Position numbers and translations under genes: made by a program. This document shows, piece after piece, positions 30,953-40,436 of a stretch of 46,432 bases of DNA. The stretch is from contig NTKG01000005.1 in NCBI GenBank assembly GCA_002457305.1, positions 1-46,432 of the forward strand. The letters run 5' to 3'. Within the stretch, counting starts at the first letter, position 1. Every line of letters starts with the position of its first letter. The DNA is from Bacteroidetes bacterium MED-G21 (GTDB lineage: Bacteria; Bacteroidota; Bacteroidia; Flavobacteriales; UBA7430). Below the pieces are notes generated by a model. That model saw only the letters and a list, made by a program, of their open reading frames with translations, was not told the origin of the DNA and ran no database searches.

Positions 30953-32544
30953 TGAAGTTTGAAGAAGAAATACAACGCAGGAGAACTTTTGCCATTATAT
31001 CTCACCCCGATGCGGGTAAGACAACGCTTACAGAAAAACTTCTTTTGTATGGCGGAGCTATTAATGTGGCAGGTGCAGTAAAATCGAATAAAATAAAAAA
31101 AACAGCCACTTCCGACTTTATGGAAATTGAACGTCAGAGAGGTATATCTGTGGCTACTTCGGTAATGGGTTTTGAGTATTTAGGAAAGAAAATTAATATT
31201 CTTGATACACCTGGTCATCAAGACTTTGCTGAAGATACTTTTAGAACTTTAACAGCTGCCGATTCGGTTATTGTGGTGATTGATGTTGCCAAAGGTGTAG
31301 AGCCACAAACTGAAAAGCTAGTTAAGGTTTGTAGAATGCGGAAGATACCAATTATCGTTTTCATTAATAAGTTAGATCGAATTGGTAAAGATGCTTTTGA
31401 CTTGTTAGATGAAATAGAAGGTAAGTTGGGCCTTAAAGTGCGTCCTTTAACCTGGCCAATTGGAATGGGACCCGATTTGAAAGGTGTTTATAACCTTTAT
31501 GAAAAGAGCCTTATTCTTTACACCCCTAATTCTACTGAACGGGTTTCAGAAAAACTTGCTATTTCAGATATTTCTGATTCTGAACTCGATAATCAAATTG
31601 GTAGTGAGGATGCTGAAATGCTTCGAGAAGAGGTTGAACTCGTTGAGTCTGTTTATCCAGAATTTGATAGATCGGTTTATTTAGATGGCGATGTATCTCC
31701 AGTCTTCTTTGGTTCAGCAATTAATACTTTTGGTGTACAGGAGCTTTTGCATTGCTTTTTAGATATTGCCCCTTCACCTTTACCAAAAGAATCTGAAGAA
31801 AGAGTAGTGGACCCTTATGAAGATAAGTTTACGGGCTTTATTTTTAAAATTCATGCCAATATGGACCCCAAGCACAGGGACCGTCTGGCATTTGTGAAAA
31901 TTGTTTCTGGAAAGTTTCACAGAAATACAAATTATAAACACATCCGGTTGGATCGGAACATGAAGTTTTCTAGTCCTACAGCATTTATGGCTGAGAAGAA
32001 ATCAATAGTTGAAGAGGCTTTTCCAGGCGATATTGTGGGACTTCATGATACGGGTAACTTCAAAATAGGGGATACCTTAACCGAAGGTGAGTTGATACAT
32101 TATAAAGGAATTCCTAGCTTTTCTCCTGAGATGTTTCGATTTGTAAATAATGCCGATCCCATGAAATCGAAACAATTGGCAAAGGGGATTGATCAGCTGA
32201 TGGATGAGGGTGTTGCTCAATTATTTACGATGTCAACCAATGGTCGCAAACTAATTGGGACAGTAGGTGCACTTCAATTTGAAGTTATTCAATATCGTTT
32301 AAAACATGAATATGGTGCTTCCTGTTCATACGAAAATCTTAATGTACATAAAGCTTGTTGGATCTCGTGTAAGGATAAAGTTCAACTTCAAGAATTTAAA
32401 AAAGTAAAGTATCGGTCTATGGCGACAGATAAATTTGGTAGAGATGTGTTTTTAGCCGATTCTGCTTTTACCATCCAAATGGCTGAGCAAAAATTTCCAG
32501 AAGTTAAGTTTCATTTTACTTCTGAATTTGAAGAATTGGCCTAA
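30952..32544 (+). CDS. prfC: Peptide chain release factor 3
   Basis: 530 residues, translational GTPase that recycles RF1 and RF2 after termination. G1 SHPDAGKT is at 17-24, the switch I region is near 53-66 (SDFMEIERQRGISV), G3 DTPGHQDF at 85-92 and G4 NKLD at 139-142. The rest covers domains II and III with full family length. The gene overlaps the S4 gene by one base and its stop overlaps the convergent T9SS gene's stop region by 4 bp. Confidence 0.95.
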   Translation: MKFEEEIQRRRTFAIISHPDAGKTTLTEKLLLYGGAINVAGAVKSNKIKKTATSDFMEIERQRGISVATSVMGFEYLGKKINILDTPGHQDFAEDTFRTLTAADSVIVVIDVAKGVEPQTEKLVKVCRMRKIPIIVFINKLDRIGKDAFDLLDEIEGKLGLKVRPLTWPIGMGPDLKGVYNLYEKSLILYTPNSTERVSEKLAISDISDSELDNQIGSEDAEMLREEVELVESVYPEFDRSVYLDGDVSPVFFGSAINTFGVQELLHCFLDIAPSPLPKESEERVVDPYEDKFTGFIFKIHANMDPKHRDRLAFVKIVSGKFHRNTNYKHIRLDRNMKFSSPTAFMAEKKSIVEEAFPGDIVGLHDTGNFKIGDTLTEGELIHYKGIPSFSPEMFRFVNNADPMKSKQLAKGIDQLMDEGVAQLFTMSTNGRKLIGTVGALQFEVIQYRLKHEYGASCSYENLNVHKACWISCKDKVQLQEFKKVKYRSMATDKFGRDVFLADSAFTIQMAEQKFPEVKFHFTSEFEELA

Positions 32545-35321
32545 TTGTTTTTTACCCACTTTCGAGATAATTCACCGACTTTTATAATATAAATTCCTTT
32601 TGCCATTGAAGCTACATTAACTTTCGTTTTTGGAACTGTTATCTTGTCCTTATAAATTAATTTACCCTGAAGATCATAGATTTCATACAATTCTTCTTTA
32701 TTGGTTTCTATAATCAAATATTCTGATGCAGGATTAGGATAAATATGAATATTATTTTCTGGTTCAACTTCAGCAATTTCGATGACATCGTTAACAGATT
32801 GAATTTTTGTGGTATAAATTCCATTTCCATGTGTAGCCAACACAACTAAGCTGTCTTCAGCTCTTGTTTTAACTTGTTCACATACAACATTTCCAATGGT
32901 GTTGGCACCCATTTGTGTCCAATTTGTCTCCTGACCTTCTATTTTGTTTGTTGCGTAAAGTCCAGTACTTGTAGCTACAAAATATAGGGTATCTTCTCCT
33001 AAAGGCATAATGGATGCCCATCTAAATGAAGGTCCGTCACCACCTCCATTTGATTGTTGTTCTAAATTACCTCCTGCACGCGACCATGTTTCTCCACCAT
33101 CTGTCGTATAATATATACTATAGACTTCGTAGTTTGAAAACACTGTTAATGCTACATCCCCATCGTTTGGATGAATAGCTATATTATTAATGTATCCAGA
33201 ACTAGGAAATGCGTCTAGAGGTGCCATTCCAATACCTGTTTGATAATTATTCGTGATTTCCGTAATTATTGGTTCATTGCTATTTGCATTATCCACTCTG
33301 TATAATTCCTTAGAATTTGTACCTACATACAACCTGTTAATTGGATTTCCTTTTGTAGAACTTATACAGCTAATTTCTCGACCTGATAGATTCAAATCAA
33401 TGGCTTCTATCCATTCATCACTAATAGAGTCCCATTCATTAGTTAAAGGGATGTTATTTAAATTTGAATGTCTCCAAATTGTTGTTTCGTCAGGATAATA
33501 CATAATGTTATCTGTAAAAGGATCTACAACAAATGGATGTATAAACATTTGCTCCTCAGGACCGATAGGATCTATTCTTCTTAGTCCTGTTCTATTACCA
33601 TTTTCATCTATGGTAATTTTGTATACTTTACCGTTTTGAATTGACATGTAATAAACTTCCTCGTCAGCTGTAAAATGAGCAAATGCTCCGTCTCCATTTA
33701 ATGGCATTACCCATGGTGCATTTGGGTCTTCAGAATTGGTAAAGAAATTTCCATTATCTTGAAATCCACCCAATATACTATTTGTAGCCTGATGTTCATT
33801 AATTGTTGCTGTATAGAGTTGTGTACTGTAATACCCATTGTTAAGAGAATTCCATTCTACGTCTTCAGCCAAATAATTATCACTGATAAACAAGCCACCA
33901 TCATTAGCGTTAATGATACTGTTTGGAGATGAAGGAATAAAAGCAACTTCATGCTGATCTGGGTGATGTGTATCATAGATTTGAAAATCAGGAAAATTGG
34001 TTCCTTTTTGGTAACCACCAATTTGGTTTACATTATCCATAGTACTAAAACCATCGGTAGAAACATAAAGGTTTGTACCTCCAAGGAAAATATGATTTTC
34101 ATCAAATGGGCTAATTGCAATAGTAAGATTATATGATCCTTGAGCGTAAAAATTATCGAAGTTACTTCCAATTCCAGTTGGAATGTTTAATGATAAATCT
34201 TCCCATACACCCATTTGTGAGGTAGTATCTTCTATCGAATAAGTGTATTTCCATAAGCTACAATGTTCTGTTTCATCACTAAATGTGATTGATGCTTGAC
34301 CGGCATTAGGTGTTACCGCAATAAAATATACTTCATTTTCATTATGAGGGTTGATTGCCATTTTTATTCGATCGTATGTGGATGGCCAGTCTTCCGGTAA
34401 AATATTATTCCATTCTATGCCATTTTCACTTCTCCAAATACCTTTGTCAACACCATCACTACTTAATGAGGCATATACCACACCTTCTGTACTCACTTCA
34501 ATTTCAGAAAAATAAGCACTATTAGATCCAGAACCTAGGACACTGGTCCAATTTTCGCCGCCATCTTGACTTCTGTGAATGGCACCATAAGTGGCTGCGT
34601 AAATTAAATCTAAGCTGTCATTTGAAGGGTCGATTTCAATATCCCAAATTAAGTCCCATATTTCATCAAATTCTTCAGGAGTATTGGAAGCTGTACTTGA
34701 TAATGAATTCCATGTTTGACCATTGTCATTAGATTTATACATTCCGTTTCCAAAGAAATATGCATCATTGCCAGAGGCAGAGTTACCATAAGCTTCTCCA
34801 CTTCCATAATACCATGTAGCCGAATGTCCTTCTCGTGTGTCTTGCCGTAAACAAGTTACATTATGTAGCATTTCAGGACTTGTTAACTTAGTCCAAGAAT
34901 CTCCTTTATCTTCTGAACGCCACACACCTCCAGAAACACCTCCAGCCATGATGGTGTTTTCATCGGTAACATCAATAGCCATAGCACGTGTTCTTCCACC
35001 TACATTGTAGGGACCTCTAGCAATCCAATTAGTTTGTAATTTTGTGTTTTTAGGAATTGTTTGGGCAAATTTCAATTCTTTGGCTCTTATGTTATCTGGA
35101 ATTTTACCTTCAGGATTTAGCAACCTTGAAAAAGACCAATTTCTTAAGTTGTTTGGATTGGATTCTAAGCCGATACCCATTCCAGCGATTTTTACTTTCT
35201 TTTTATCAGCTTTTGCTTTGAGTTGTAGCTCAATTTGTGTTTTAATTTTTTGAGTTTTATAGTGTTTTATGCTGAAGTAACTTATAAATATAAGTGTAAT
35301 AAATGCAATTATTTTCTTCAT
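32541..35321 (-). CDS. Large BNR-repeat protein with T9SS sorting domain
   Basis: 926 residues from the ATG at 35321 (MKKIIAFITLIFISYFS), chosen because it begins the signal peptide; an in-frame Met 12 codons upstream adds a non-signal stretch. The body is a beta-propeller of sortilin/BNR type with Asp-box-like repeats (SNDNGQTW, SQDGGENW, TTDGGETW) starting after WIARGPYNVGGRTRAMA. The C-terminal about 75 residues are a type A sorting domain (YPNPASEYLIIET to the terminal KWVKNN). A surface-exposed or secreted protein is expected. No catalytic residues or substrate can be assigned. The stop overlaps prfC by 4 bp. Confidence 0.88.
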   Translation of the reverse strand: MKKIIAFITLIFISYFSIKHYKTQKIKTQIELQLKAKADKKKVKIAGMGIGLESNPNNLRNWSFSRLLNPEGKIPDNIRAKELKFAQTIPKNTKLQTNWIARGPYNVGGRTRAMAIDVTDENTIMAGGVSGGVWRSEDKGDSWTKLTSPEMLHNVTCLRQDTREGHSATWYYGSGEAYGNSASGNDAYFFGNGMYKSNDNGQTWNSLSSTASNTPEEFDEIWDLIWDIEIDPSNDSLDLIYAATYGAIHRSQDGGENWTSVLGSGSNSAYFSEIEVSTEGVVYASLSSDGVDKGIWRSENGIEWNNILPEDWPSTYDRIKMAINPHNENEVYFIAVTPNAGQASITFSDETEHCSLWKYTYSIEDTTSQMGVWEDLSLNIPTGIGSNFDNFYAQGSYNLTIAISPFDENHIFLGGTNLYVSTDGFSTMDNVNQIGGYQKGTNFPDFQIYDTHHPDQHEVAFIPSSPNSIINANDGGLFISDNYLAEDVEWNSLNNGYYSTQLYTATINEHQATNSILGGFQDNGNFFTNSEDPNAPWVMPLNGDGAFAHFTADEEVYYMSIQNGKVYKITIDENGNRTGLRRIDPIGPEEQMFIHPFVVDPFTDNIMYYPDETTIWRHSNLNNIPLTNEWDSISDEWIEAIDLNLSGREISCISSTKGNPINRLYVGTNSKELYRVDNANSNEPIITEITNNYQTGIGMAPLDAFPSSGYINNIAIHPNDGDVALTVFSNYEVYSIYYTTDGGETWSRAGGNLEQQSNGGGDGPSFRWASIMPLGEDTLYFVATSTGLYATNKIEGQETNWTQMGANTIGNVVCEQVKTRAEDSLVVLATHGNGIYTTKIQSVNDVIEIAEVEPENNIHIYPNPASEYLIIETNKEELYEIYDLQGKLIYKDKITVPKTKVNVASMAKGIYIIKVGELSRKWVKNN

Positions 35322-35352: not shown

Positions 35353-35388
35353 AACAAAAAAACCTCAACTAAAGATGAGGCTTTTTAA
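35353..35388 (-). terminator. Terminator downstream of the PhoD-like gene
   Basis: The stem CCTCA/TGAGG (35363-35367 with 35376-35380), extended by flanking A/T pairs, is bordered by A and T runs on both sides. On the minus strand it ends the PhoD-like transcript before the BNR gene begins. Confidence 0.75.
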
Positions 35389-35396
35389 AAATCTAT

Positions 35397-36716
35397 TTAG
35401 TAAGAGATTTCTGTTTGGTGTATTCTTTTTTTGAAAACTTCTTTACCTATTTCATTATACACTTGAATACTGCAAATACGTTTGCGGTAATCACCTTCAA
35501 CCTTTATACGTGCAAAGTTACCATCAAATAAGCCTTCAGGACTTAAACCAGGGAATTTGAGCTCGTAGAGAGGGTAGGCATATTCTCTTTCTTCTTTTAT
35601 AAGTTCTGTTTTATCTGTGTCTCCAGTAATAAATACGACACCATTAATGCGAGATAGGTGTAGTCTTTCCATGAGCTCTTCATATTCTTTTGAGTAATCT
35701 TGAAAAGGTTCATCGTCTTCTCCTTCTGATAAAATACTATTTCCACAAATAATGAATTTAAATGCAGCATTAGAGCCCATAATTTCATTGATAAAACGAT
35801 TCATTTGATTGTCTCCGAAAAATTGAGGGTCGTCTTGATTTAAAGCTGTTTTAAACATTCGGTTATCCATCATAAATATTTCCACATCTTCATAATCATA
35901 ACGTTTGTATACACCATATTCTCTAAATGTATAATTGTATATCTTTTTAGGTGCATTAGGCCAGAATAAATTAAAAGCCATTAATGTAGAGTCTTTAAGA
36001 GCAAAACGTGTGTCTGAAGTATTTAATCCAAAATCTTTATCGTTCCAAGTAGCAATATGAGGCATCTGTTTCATGAAGTGATTCACGCTTTGACGCTTTC
36101 TTATGGATTTGTATTTTTCAAGCATTTTTTTGAATGAGTTGGATTCACTTTTATTGAATGAAACATTATTACCCATCCAAACCATAAAGTCAGATTCAAC
36201 TTCTGACATGGCATCGAGAATTTGATCACCCTTGTCATTATCATGAGATAAATTCAAATTGTGTCCTAAAAGGAAGTATATGTCAGCTAAAAAATTGCGT
36301 GGCGTATAGATTTCCATCTCTTCTTCTACCATTACAGAATCTAAATAAATTTCTACATGGTATTCTGAGTCAGGAATTAATTCTTCTAGAGTAAGAACAA
36401 CTGGTATCTCATCTCCATTATTATAATCAGATATATGAAAGTCAAACCAGCTTGAGTTGTTAAAACTTTTTGGGTCTGTAAGATCGTAAACTAAGGTTTT
36501 GTTTCGGTCTTCATCAAAATTTTCCAGTTTAATAGTAACTTTTTTTGTTTCTTTTGAGACTAAAAGCCACATCTGAGCATGATAGTTATCAATGTAAGAA
36601 AGCATAGGCCCTGCAATCAATTTAGATGCTTCTTCACCCGTAGTTTTCTTTTGTGCAAAAGATGAATTTATATTTAGCAATAATGCTGAAGCTAATAAAA
36701 GTAAATATTTGTTCAT
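35397..36716 (-). CDS. PhoD-like phosphatase-fold protein with degenerate active site
   Basis: 439 residues from the ATG at 36716, the start of the signal peptide (to about residue 21, SFAQ). An N-terminal Ig-like domain precedes a metallophosphatase-like domain. It aligns by eye with Bacteroidota PhoD-like proteins: the GDN metal motif is MGNN, the WDDHDYG motif is WNDKDFG and the SGDRHHTEL motif is TGDTDKTEL. The metal-binding Asp and His residues are thus largely replaced, and the usual Cys motif before them is not visible. It is probably a non-catalytic exported relative. It has its own terminator and follows the PPIase pair on the same strand. Confidence 0.72.
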   Translation of the reverse strand: MNKYLLLLASALLLNINSSFAQKKTTGEEASKLIAGPMLSYIDNYHAQMWLLVSKETKKVTIKLENFDEDRNKTLVYDLTDPKSFNNSSWFDFHISDYNNGDEIPVVLTLEELIPDSEYHVEIYLDSVMVEEEMEIYTPRNFLADIYFLLGHNLNLSHDNDKGDQILDAMSEVESDFMVWMGNNVSFNKSESNSFKKMLEKYKSIRKRQSVNHFMKQMPHIATWNDKDFGLNTSDTRFALKDSTLMAFNLFWPNAPKKIYNYTFREYGVYKRYDYEDVEIFMMDNRMFKTALNQDDPQFFGDNQMNRFINEIMGSNAAFKFIICGNSILSEGEDDEPFQDYSKEYEELMERLHLSRINGVVFITGDTDKTELIKEEREYAYPLYELKFPGLSPEGLFDGNFARIKVEGDYRKRICSIQVYNEIGKEVFKKRIHQTEISY

Positions 36717-36769
36717 TGTTGTTGTTGTTTTGACTATCAAAGCGTAAATATATGCAAATTGTACCTAAA

Positions 36770-36800
36770 CAAAAACCCCACCAAAAAGTGGGGTTTTAAA
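36770..36800 (-). terminator. Rho-independent terminator of the PPIase operon
   Basis: A 10-bp perfect stem AAAACCCCAC/GTGGGGTTTT (36772-36781 with 36788-36797) around a 6-nt loop, with T-rich flank on the minus strand, just past the PPIase stop. Confidence 0.85.
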
Positions 36801-36820: not shown

Positions 36821-37765
36821 TTATTTCACATCTACCAATTCCACATCAAACTCTAAAGTAGCCTTGGCGGGAATTACAGGAGGATAACCTCTTTCTCCGT
36901 AAGCCAAGTGAAACGGAATTACAAAAGTTGCTTTTCCGCCTACTTTGAGTTGAGCCACTCCTTCATCCCAACCTTTAATTACTCTTCCAGCTCCTAATGG
37001 GAAGTCAATAGGGTCGCCACGTTCAATAGAAGAGTCAAATACAGTACCATCCATTAAACGACCAGTATAGTGCACAGAAACAGTTTTCCCCACTATTGCA
37101 TCCATACCAGATCCTTCTACTTCATTAGCAATAATTAAACCGGATTCAGTTGTTCGCGCATCAGGATATTTTTCTTCAATTTGTTTCTTTAAAGTTAAAT
37201 TGGCTTCCTTTTCTTTCTCTTTTTGCTTTGTTTCGAAGTTTTTAAGTTCGTTTGCAAATAGGGTAGGTGCATCAAAGTTATTTGCCGCATCACCAACTCT
37301 TTTGATGTTCATTTTTTCTATGAAATCATCTTGAACAATACTATTTACGACCTCCATTCCTTCAATGACATTACCGAATACAGTGTGTTTGTTATCTAGC
37401 CAGTCTGTAGCTAAATGTGTAATGAAAAATTGAGAGCCATTTGTTCCAGGACCGGCATTTGCCATAGACAATACGCCTGGTCCTGAATGTTTTAAATCTG
37501 GATGAAATTCGTCAGGAAAGTTATATCCAGGTCCACCAGCTCCCGATCCTTTTGGACATCCACCTTGAACCATAAAATTGTCAATAACACGATGAAATTT
37601 TAAGCCATCGTAATAAGGGACACCTTCAGTTTTTTCATTATTAGGTATGTTTCCTTCGGCCAAACCAACAAAATTGGCAACGGTCATAGGGCATTTTTCA
37701 AACTCTAAGGATAAAAGAATATTTCCTTTGTTGGTTTGAATTTCTGCGTAAAGTCCTTCTTTCAT
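36821..37765 (-). CDS. Cyclophilin-FKBP fusion peptidyl-prolyl isomerase (cytoplasmic-type copy)
   Basis: 314 residues. The cyclophilin-type domain covers about 1-150 ([18 protein letters not shown], the active-site region [13 protein letters not shown], then [10 protein letters not shown] and [12 protein letters not shown]). A charged helical linker follows (about 165-205). The FKBP domain is at about 215-314 ([18 protein letters not shown], then [20 protein letters not shown] and the [13 protein letters not shown] end). Both domains look intact. There is no signal peptide, in contrast to the upstream paralogue, so it probably acts in the cytoplasm. It lies 11 bp downstream of that paralogue in one operon. 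Confidence 0.92.
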
Positions 37766-37776
37766 TACTAATTTTT

Positions 37777-38856
37777 TTAGTGTTGGTGATCGTGATCGTG
37801 GTCATGGTCATGATCATCAGCATCTTTTTTAACGATTTCAATTAATTCTACATCAAAAATTAAGGTCGCGTTTGGAGGTATTACACCACCAGCACCTCTT
37901 GCGCCGTAGCCCAATTCTGAAGGTATAATTAATTTTGCTTTTCCACCTACAGACAATAAAGCGATGCCTTCATCCCATCCTTGGATAACTCTGCCTACAC
38001 CAATAGGGAATTCGATAGGCTTACCTCGTTTAACAGATGAGTCAAATACAGTTCCGTCTACCAATGAGCCTGTATAATGAACCTTCACAACATCAGAGGC
38101 TTTTGGTTTGTCTCCTGTACCTTCATTTTCTATAAAATACATTAAACCACTAGCTGTTTTTGTTGCTCCAACGGTGAGCTCATTTAATTTAGCTTTTTCA
38201 GCAGCTTCTTTTTCAGCAGCAATTTGCTTTGCTTTTTCTTGTTCTTGATTAAAGACTTTTGGGGCGTCGAATTTTTTTGCTGTTCTACCATTTCTAATAA
38301 TTTTTACTGAAACGATTGAATCGTCTTTTTCAATTGCATTTACAACACTTTGAGAAATAGAATCGAGTACATGACCAAATACAGAGTGCTTTCCGTCCAG
38401 CCATGGTGTTTCTTTATGAGTAATAAAAAATTGAGAGCCATTTGTGGAAGGCCCTGAATTAGCCATTGATAAAATTCCAGGTCCTGAATGTTTTAAGTCT
38501 TCATGAAATTCGTCAGCAAATGAATAGCCTGGATCTCCAGATCCATTGCCTTGTGGGCATCCTCCTTGAATCATAAAGTCTTTTATGACACGGTGAAACT
38601 TTAGACCATCGTAGTAAGGTACACCTGCTTCCTTTTCATCATTTTCCATTTCTCCCTCTGCTAGCGCTACAAAATTAGCTACTGTAAGGGGTGTTTTTTG
38701 AAATTCTAATACCAGGTTAATAACACCTTTATTTGTGTTAATTTGAGCAAACATACCATTGTCTTTTATAGACTTTGGATTTAAAATTTCCTCTGAGCCA
38801 CAAGATTGTAGACCAAGCGCTAATAATAAGCTGTAAATAAAAAATACTTTTTTCAT
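37777..38856 (-). CDS. Cyclophilin-FKBP fusion peptidyl-prolyl isomerase (lipoprotein copy)
   Basis: 359 residues with a lipoprotein signal (LGLQSCGS, lipidated Cys19), so it is likely anchored in the envelope. The cyclophilin domain covers about 33-190 with [13 protein letters not shown] and [11 protein letters not shown] Lys/Glu/Ala-rich linker is followed by the FKBP domain (about 245-340, [18 protein letters not shown] to the [12 protein letters not shown] end). The C-terminus is a His/Asp-rich tail of alternating Asp-His, a possible metal-binding segment. It is a tandem paralogue of the gene that follows, differing by export signal and tail. A 7/8 -7 element (TATATTCG, minus strand) lies about 30 bp upstream. 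Confidence 0.92.
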
Positions 38857-38932: not shown

Positions 38933-39952
38933 TTAGCAATTCGCTATGAGTTCTTCTTTGAATTCTGGTAATACTTTTTTCAATTTAGCAATCGCTTCTT
39001 CCAGAGTTCCTTCATACATTCCTCCGGCAGCGTTAATGTGTCCACCACCATTAAAATACTTTACTGATAGTAAGTTTGCTCGGAAATCTTTCAAACTACG
39101 GAAGGAAATTTTTACTTTTTCATCGTATTGAATAAAGAATGCTGTAAACACAATGCCATTAATAGATAAAGCATAATTTACAAACCCTTCGGTATCGCCT
39201 TTTTCAAAGTTAAATTTATTAAGCTCTTCAATACTCAAGCTCATTATCGCTGTATGGTATTCTGGTAGAACTTCTAATTTTTCACTCAGGCAATAACCCA
39301 ATAATTTTAAGCGACTCTCTTTGTTGTTGTCGAAAAGTTTTTGGTGAATATCAGCTTGATCAAGTCCCAAATTTATAAGGGCAGCGGCAATTTCATGTGT
39401 TCTTGCATCTACAGAAGAAAATCGGAACGAGCCGGTGTCGGTTACCAAACCAGTATAAATACATTTGGCAACATCTATATTAACTTGGTCTTTCCAAGCC
39501 ATATCTTCTATGAAATCGAAGATGAGTTGTGCTGTGGAGCAAATATTAGGTTCTGAAAAGACGATGTCTGCAAAATCACTTGGATCTTGGTGATGGTCAA
39601 TCATTACAAATTTACCAGAACTTTGTTCTAATGCTTTACACATCATATCTGTTCTTCGTAAATCGTTAAAATCCAAACAGAATATTAATTCTGCTTCATT
39701 AATGTGTTGCTTTGCTAGTTCTTCTTCGCCTTCAAACTCAACTACATCATCGTTAAATGGCAGCCAGTGTAAAAACTCTGCATAGCTGTTTGGAACTACA
39801 ACAGATACTTTATGGCCTAAGGCTTTCAATACCTGATACAGCGCCAAAGAAGAACCCATGGCATCACCATCAGGACCACGGTGAGTGGTAATGAGAATAT
39901 TAGGTTCCTTTTCAAGTTCTGCTTTAACAGCTTTATGGTTGTGATTTTTCAT
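38933..39952 (-). CDS. DHH-family phosphoesterase, NrnA-type
   Basis: 339 residues from the ATG at 39952; an upstream in-frame Met at 40075 would run into ndk, and the ATG here sits just after a promoter element. DHH domain motifs: THRGPDGDA (23-31), [10 protein letters not shown] (with the DHH triad) and TDTGSFRF. The DHHA1 domain ends with [10 protein letters not shown]. NrnA-type enzymes degrade nano-RNA and dephosphorylate pAp. It is divergent from ndk over 64 bp and has a -7 element TAATTTTG on the minus strand at 39959-39966. Confidence 0.9.
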
Positions 39953-39958
39953 AGAAGG

Positions 39959-39966
39959 CAAAATTA
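39959..39966 (-). promoter_or_regulatory. -7 promoter element of the DHH phosphoesterase gene
   Basis: TAATTTTG on the minus strand, perfect TAnnTTTG, only 6 bp upstream of the ATG, implying a very short or absent leader. Confidence 0.45.
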
Positions 39967-40016
39967 GTGATTTCTCAAAGATTTTACTTATTTTCGCGGC
40001 GAATAAAAACAAGACA

Positions 40017-40436
40017 ATGGCTACAAACAGAACATTTACCATGCTAAAGCCTGATGCTGTCGCGAACGGATACATCGGAGCTATTTTAGAAAAGATTACT
40101 GCTGCAGGATTCCGTATCGTTGCAATGAAAATGACTCAATTAACCAAAGCTGATGCTGAAGCATTTTATGCGATTCATGCAGAGCGTCCTTTTTTCGGCG
40201 AGTTGGTAGAATATATGACTTCAGGTCCTATTGTATCGGCTGTACTAGAGAAGGATAATGCTGTTGAGGACTTTCGTACTTTAATAGGCGCTACAAATCC
40301 AGCTGAAGCCGCAGAAGGAACGATTCGTAAAATGTATGCTGAATCTATATCTGCAAATGCTGTTCACGGTTCAGATTCTGATGAAAATGCTGCGATTGAA
40401 GCTGCATTTCATTTTGCAGGTAGAGAACACTTCTAA
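40017..40436 (+). CDS. ndk: Nucleoside diphosphate kinase
   Basis: 139 residues. Lys11 in FTMLKPDAV and the phosphorylated His117 in NAVHGSDS match the family; length is standard. It transfers the terminal phosphate between nucleoside triphosphates and diphosphates in the cytoplasm. A 7/8 -7 element (TATTTTCG, 39989-39996) lies about 20 bp upstream, within 30 bp of the divergent DHH promoter. A strong bidirectional terminator follows. Confidence 0.97.

Follow-up and report, generated by a model that had tools for sequence, protein, structure and literature searches.

Sequence comparison indicates that one gene of the window (i.e., the whole analyzed stretch of DNA, 46,432 nucleotides) very probably encodes a pseudoenzyme, a protein related to the phosphatase PhoD, here termed pseudo-PhoD, in which the catalytic residues have been lost while the fold and the gene have been maintained. 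The first-pass annotation had placed an exported PhoD-like protein at this locus and proposed it as a pseudoenzyme candidate. The open reading frame, its coordinates, the Sec signal and the predicted PhoD fold all agree with the former claim, and the latter is borne out by the combination of a predicted fold, lost ligands and purifying selection. The source genome (1.4 Mb, 73% complete) has its named relatives among uncultured Flavobacteriales (e.g., UBA7430). Features of the locus are collected in Table 1.

Table 1. Features of the pseudo-PhoD locus, in window coordinates; residue numbers refer to the pseudo-PhoD protein.
Feature	Position	Strand	Remarks
Terminator-like hairpin after the pseudo-PhoD gene	35357..35386	minus	
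Pseudo-PhoD gene	35397..36716	minus	439 aa, stop included; ATG at 36716, stop ends at 35397; PF09423 27.8 bits; Foldseek top match 2YEQ
GDTD, residues 365-368	35613..35624	minus	Aligned to GDxH (D436, H438); alignment
New conserved patch, residues 247-277 (AFNLFWPNAPKKIYNYTFREYGVYKRYDYED)	35886..35978	minus	Most conserved stretch of the clade
WNDKDFGLNT, residues 224-233	36018..36047	minus	Aligned to WDDHDxGPND/N (D265, D266, N271, N272)
GNNVS, residues 182-186	36159..36173	minus	Aligned to GDxxY (D207, Y210); alignment
Codon for N153	36258..36260	minus	Aligned to Fe ligand Cys180 of BsPhoD; alignment, ligand from PMC4223295
Sec signal peptide, residues 1-21 (MNKYLLLLASALLLNINSSFA, then Q22)	36654..36716	minus	Read directly from sequence
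Upstream block ACAATTTGCATATATTTACGCTTTGAT	36736..36762	minus	27 bases, near-identical in five species
Terminator-like hairpin (AAAACCCCAC, TTTTTG, GTGGGGTTTTT)	36771..36797	minus	Between foldase gene and pseudo-PhoD
PPI2, cyclophilin + FKBP foldase	36821..37765	minus	No signal peptide evident
PPI1, cyclophilin + FKBP foldase	37777..38856	minus	Lipoprotein-like signal (LGLQSCG)
DHH/DHHA1 protein	38933..40075	minus	NrnA-like

Homology of this protein to PhoD is weak by sequence, yet clear by predicted structure. Its Pfam PF09423 score barely exceeds the cut-off of 27 bits (13 of 14 members of the clade described below match this family at E 0.01), its N terminus yields a sub-threshold Pfam match to DUF7800, and an NCBIfam search returned no match. 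PDB sequences searched by phmmer and by a clade profile gave nothing; of the PDB sequence searches, only the one with a profile of active-type relatives reached the Bacillus subtilis enzyme (BsPhoD, 2YEQ), thereby providing the ligand mapping used in this study. AlphaFold2 was run twice, with a 19-row (pLDDT 80, pTM 0.83) and then a 40-row alignment (pLDDT 85, pTM 0.86), and for both models Foldseek ranked 2YEQ first (E 1.1e-17, TM 0.69 for the first model; E 2.9e-20, TM 0.66 for the second), followed by purple acid phosphatases (PAPs), with Vps29 and Plasmodium GAP50 also among the matches. The models consist of two domains, an N-terminal beta-sandwich with weak DUF7800 similarity and a PhoD/PAP domain. 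Structure prediction, suggested earlier as a check, has thus returned a confident PhoD/PAP fold with 2YEQ as the best PDB match and with the aligned ligand positions lost. The signal peptide is of the signal peptidase I type, without a lipobox Cys, and is followed by a Gln (Q22) invariant in a 14-sequence alignment; Pfam and NCBIfam searches revealed no match to the T9SS C-terminal sorting domain (Por_Secre_tail).

The metal site of BsPhoD provides a reference for the loss. Residues C180, D207, D265, D266, N271, N272 and D436 belong to this site, and their single mutations abolish or drastically lower activity (PMC4223295); two further ligands, Y210 and H438, were assigned by combining the alignment with the iron site that PhoD shares with PAPs. 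At the positions of C180, D207, Y210, D265, D266, N271, N272, D436 and H438 (listed in this order), the window protein has N153, N183, S186, N225, D226, N232, T233, D366 and D368, a change at six of the nine positions, including all four Fe positions (C180N, D207N, Y210S, H438D). The Fe3+ ligand set (Cys or Asp at 180, D207, Y210, H438) is therefore absent, and the Ca set (D265, D266, N271, N272 or Asp, D436) is incomplete, with three of five positions matching. All three motifs quoted in the first-pass annotation as replacing active ones (MGNN, WNDKDFG and TGDTDKTEL) are present in the translation, within W180-M-G-N-N184, W224-N-D-K-D-F-G230 and T364-G-D-T-D-K-T-E-L, respectively, their counterparts in aligned active-type relatives being GDNxY, WDDHDFGPND and GDRHHSE. 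A fourth lost motif, GSC replaced by GHN, carries the Fe ligand Cys180 (N153 here); neither this motif nor the two loop deletions described below appear in the first-pass annotation. The accompanying statement that the catalytic residues are gone was slightly too strong for this protein, since D226, N232 and D366 still match, although none of these is kept across its clade.

Relatives share this state. All 18 clade members lack Cys180, whereas all 24 aligned active-type relatives have it, a contrast that, by these alignments, exceeds chance; the same 24 proteins also all keep D207, Y210, D265, D266, D436 and H438. No clade member has a complete metal site, and the leftover ligands are scattered and differ by species. 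Two substrate-side active-site loops are deleted in the clade, the first bearing RPGxPYG after the cysteine and the second, near the C terminus, TSGAV...ENSFR...IQQRNF. A search for an invariant His or Cys across the clade found none and the old ligand columns vary, so an alternative metal site common to the whole clade appears unlikely. A family-specific site (H152, N183, D366) in the family of the window (f1) is possible, as is weak metal or phosphate binding there, these residues being conserved near the old site. From the aligned sequences, we infer that pseudo-PhoD would lack both metal and activity.

In a maximum-likelihood tree of 47 sequences, the 18 ligand-poor proteins form one branch (support 100/100), whose stem measures 1.33 changes per site. 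The question raised earlier, whether relatives keep the substitutions, is thereby answered: the loss is common to a single clade spanning three Flavobacteriales families. The ligand set is nearly complete in the closest outgroup (L098, L099 and L101, which belong to other families of this class), and the tree indicates a single dismantling of the active site along the clade's long stem. A sequencing artefact as the source of motif loss was rejected, the same state being found in 18 genomes. Searched across the order, the clade profile gives at least 437 bits for intact members and 188 bits for the next unrelated match, with fragmentary copies in genomes G001 and G049 scoring between these values; outside the clade, no match in 395 genomes of the class exceeds 239 bits. 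The gene is present in 10 of 12 f1 genomes, in 8 of 12 genomes from family f7 and in both genomes from family f14. Most genomes without it are incomplete; one f7 genome (G071), 95% complete, also lacks it. In the same-genus genome G001 (L036, contig C4), frameshifts occur in the pseudo-PhoD, foldase and SprA genes, a pattern typical of uncorrected long reads; because the latter two genes are also broken there, these shifts look like assembly errors and should not be taken as gene decay.

Selection now appears to protect a different part of the protein. Among close orthologues, dN/dS is 0.03–0.07 (0.027–0.067), as quoted from pairs with finite dS only, dS being saturated for most pairs; these codon comparisons indicate strong purifying selection and, therefore, a functional protein. 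Within the clade, the former ligand columns rank from the 3rd to the 59th percentile of conservation, and all top 15-residue conservation windows fall within residues 247-284, with conservation of 0.82–0.87 in the clade vs. 0.31–0.59 in active-type relatives. K258, Y260, N261, Y262, Y270, Y275 and D277 of the new patch are clade-invariant. The patch is likely a contact site for a partner, and its loop 257-265, of low pLDDT in the AlphaFold2 prediction, would fit a segment that becomes ordered upon binding; the patch could also serve folding instead of binding.

The gene neighborhood provides a second line of functional evidence. In the window, the NrnA-like DHH gene is followed by PPI1, PPI2 and pseudo-PhoD, and of the 17 loci that could be assessed, 15 (seven in f1 genomes, seven in f7 and one in f14) have the gene behind such a DHH/(GldI)/cyclophilin-FKBP foldase cluster, which varies in having one or two foldases and in whether a small GldI-like FKBP protein is present. 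Pseudo-PhoD is located elsewhere in the two exceptions (G005 and G024), and a copy at a contig end (in G011) was left out of this count. None of 14 active-type loci lies near foldases, nor do the closest outgroups in the contigs examined. In most of the other Flavobacteriales families examined, a DHH-GldI-PPI cluster occurs without a PhoD-like gene, so pseudo-PhoD probably joined an existing foldase cluster. We rejected in-place loss of an enzyme already residing in the cluster, since active-type homologues are absent there and the cluster often lacks a PhoD gene.

The foldases themselves resemble known envelope factors. PPI1 scores 91.3 bits against the NCBIfam BamJ model, under its cut-off of 100, and a related foldase (L079, 4979-5977) passes it with 110.9 bits. 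GldI proper, sought in 12 genomes of the window's family, gave no match over the cut-off, and sub-cut-off matches checked by gene position were the larger foldases; all 12 carry the gene for the T9SS translocon SprA. The foldase and pseudo-PhoD genes of f7 and genus g4 are separated by 8–39 bases, with no terminator, and likely form an operon. In the window, the intergenic stretch (predicted fold -21.8 kcal/mol) contains a terminator-like hairpin, with equivalents in g2 and g3 genomes and none in g4 or f7. Together, this hairpin and the conserved block of the window, g2 and g3 suggest a probable promoter of pseudo-PhoD's own at the upstream block. Coupling to the foldases is thus loose, because these elements intervene in the window and in closely related genomes and because the gene lies elsewhere in two genomes.

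Taken together, these data favor, on balance, an account in which a dead PhoD is kept as a binding module in a foldase-served envelope pathway. Ligand substitutions and the loss of two substrate-side loops would have dismantled the three-metal site once, and strong selection for a non-catalytic role would then have preserved the gene. The protein would act as a periplasmic or surface binding module, meeting its partner via patch 247-277 and serving the same envelope pathway as the adjoining GldI-/BamJ-like prolyl isomerases (outer-membrane/T9SS assembly). The parts of this account differ in strength. A binding role as such is moderately probable; of the earlier suggestion of a binding or structural protein, it is the shift of conservation to 247-277 and the foldase gene link that would speak in its favor. 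A link of this module to foldases, BAM or T9SS in envelope assembly, drawn from gene context, is tentative. GldI is needed for gliding motility, and gldI mutants reportedly have an unstable GldK, so that T9SS secretion is impaired (PMC8444969). In the Bacteroidota BAM, the subunits BamJ and BamM have a foldase fold (PMC12578637, PMC12611786). Term searches of the two BAM papers (PMC12578637, PMC12611786) found no PhoD-like or phosphatase component. By analogy, pseudo-PhoD might be a bacterial counterpart of Vps29, recruited once in marine Flavobacteriales to the outer-membrane/T9SS assembly machinery assisted by prolyl isomerases, where it would dock via 247-277 as an accessory subunit or a client adaptor, an extension that we regard as doubtful.

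Other readings were weighed against the same evidence. The old pocket, metal-free, could hold a small ligand (a phosphorylated compound, glycan or lipid), which would make the protein a sensor or carrier instead of a protein scaffold; the intact fold and a fairly conserved segment at the first lost motif (W180 and G182 invariant) are compatible with this idea, but the former ligands vary, the strongest conservation has moved to the patch, and no transport or sensor genes consistently adjoin, all of which makes it unlikely. More improbable is an exported protein with a structural or adhesion role that has no connection with the foldases, the adjacency being historical: the terminator and conserved upstream block that the gene has to itself in g1-g3, as well as the relocated copies in G005 and G024, could be read this way, but the adjacency lasts over three families, holds despite a completely different far side of the locus, and includes the short, terminator-free gaps of f7 and g4.

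Retained phosphatase or phosphodiesterase activity from a site rebuilt in the old pocket (H152, N183, D225/N and D366 in f1) appears very improbable. Catalytic residues have migrated in some pseudoenzymes (PMC10211241), and H152, N183 and D366 are invariant in f1 (H152 and D366 among the eight orthologues compared); nevertheless, the residues of this putative site are not conserved in f7 and f14, two families of that very clade whose gene neighborhood is for the most part shared with f1. Furthermore, the clade has no invariant Cys or His and has lost the two substrate-side loops, and the conservation of most old ligand columns is lower than average. Gene decay, for which only the frameshifted G001 copy speaks, has a negligible probability given the low dN/dS, the intact gene in 18 genomes and the equally broken foldase and SprA genes of G001.

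Pseudo-PhoD shares with B. subtilis PhoD (2YEQ, PF09423) the overall fold, N-terminal beta-sandwich domain and motif order, and with PhoD relatives the structural positions W180, G182, W224, D228, W252, N254, D284 and R286; unlike BsPhoD, it has broken Fe and Ca sites, two deleted active-site loops and a patch of its own. Its nearest neighbors in the tree, the Bacteroidia active-type proteins L098, L099, L101 and L018-L022, are likewise exported, full-length homologues (~24–30% identity), but they keep C180 and the six other ligands retained by the active-type set (N271/N272 vary a little, with Tyr at 271 in L099) and have no foldase genes next to them at the loci examined. Scaffolds with a metallophosphoesterase fold are already known, e.g., Vps29. 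Both Vps29 (retromer) and GAP50 have a metallophosphoesterase/PAP-like fold serving as a protein scaffold or anchor, but they are eukaryotic and not PhoD-derived; moreover, GAP50 itself has been described as a phosphatase (PMC8949495), which would count against this superfamily precedent. Pseudo-PhoD adjoins foldases of the BamJ/BamM/GldI type, yet has no detected homology to any named BAM or T9SS subunit (Pfam, NCBIfam and clade profile vs. PDB sequences).

PhoD genes are markers of phosphate acquisition in soil and ocean surveys. As this clade suggests, a Pfam PhoD match, here just over cut-off, may be non-catalytic: because the ligand set is broken, the window protein is homologous to PhoD and yet, by its sequence, should not be named a PhoD phosphatase. 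We found no description of a PhoD-derived exported pseudoenzyme clade in the searchable, open-licence part of the literature. The clade would offer a clean single-origin case of a bacterial enzyme turned binder, in which 18 intact sequences can be compared with active-type relatives. New Bacteroidota BAM subunits were described only in 2025, and pseudo-PhoD, if the foldase link is true, would be an unrecognized part of outer-membrane assembly in this phylum.

Several minor observations concern the surroundings of the gene. Directly downstream in the window (32541-35321, minus strand) lies a gene for a Sortilin/BNR-repeat protein with a T9SS sorting tail, which adjoins pseudo-PhoD also in g4 (L070, L071) and is absent in g2 and g3. 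At 40017-40075, the DHH (minus) and NDK (plus) reading frames overlap head to head by 59 bases; DHH orthologues suggest a true start further downstream, giving about 339 instead of 380 aa. The far side of the f7 loci (L075 877-5997 and equivalents) encodes a TonB-dependent receptor and a fasciclin-domain protein with a T9SS tail, a pair kept in all seven f7 loci.
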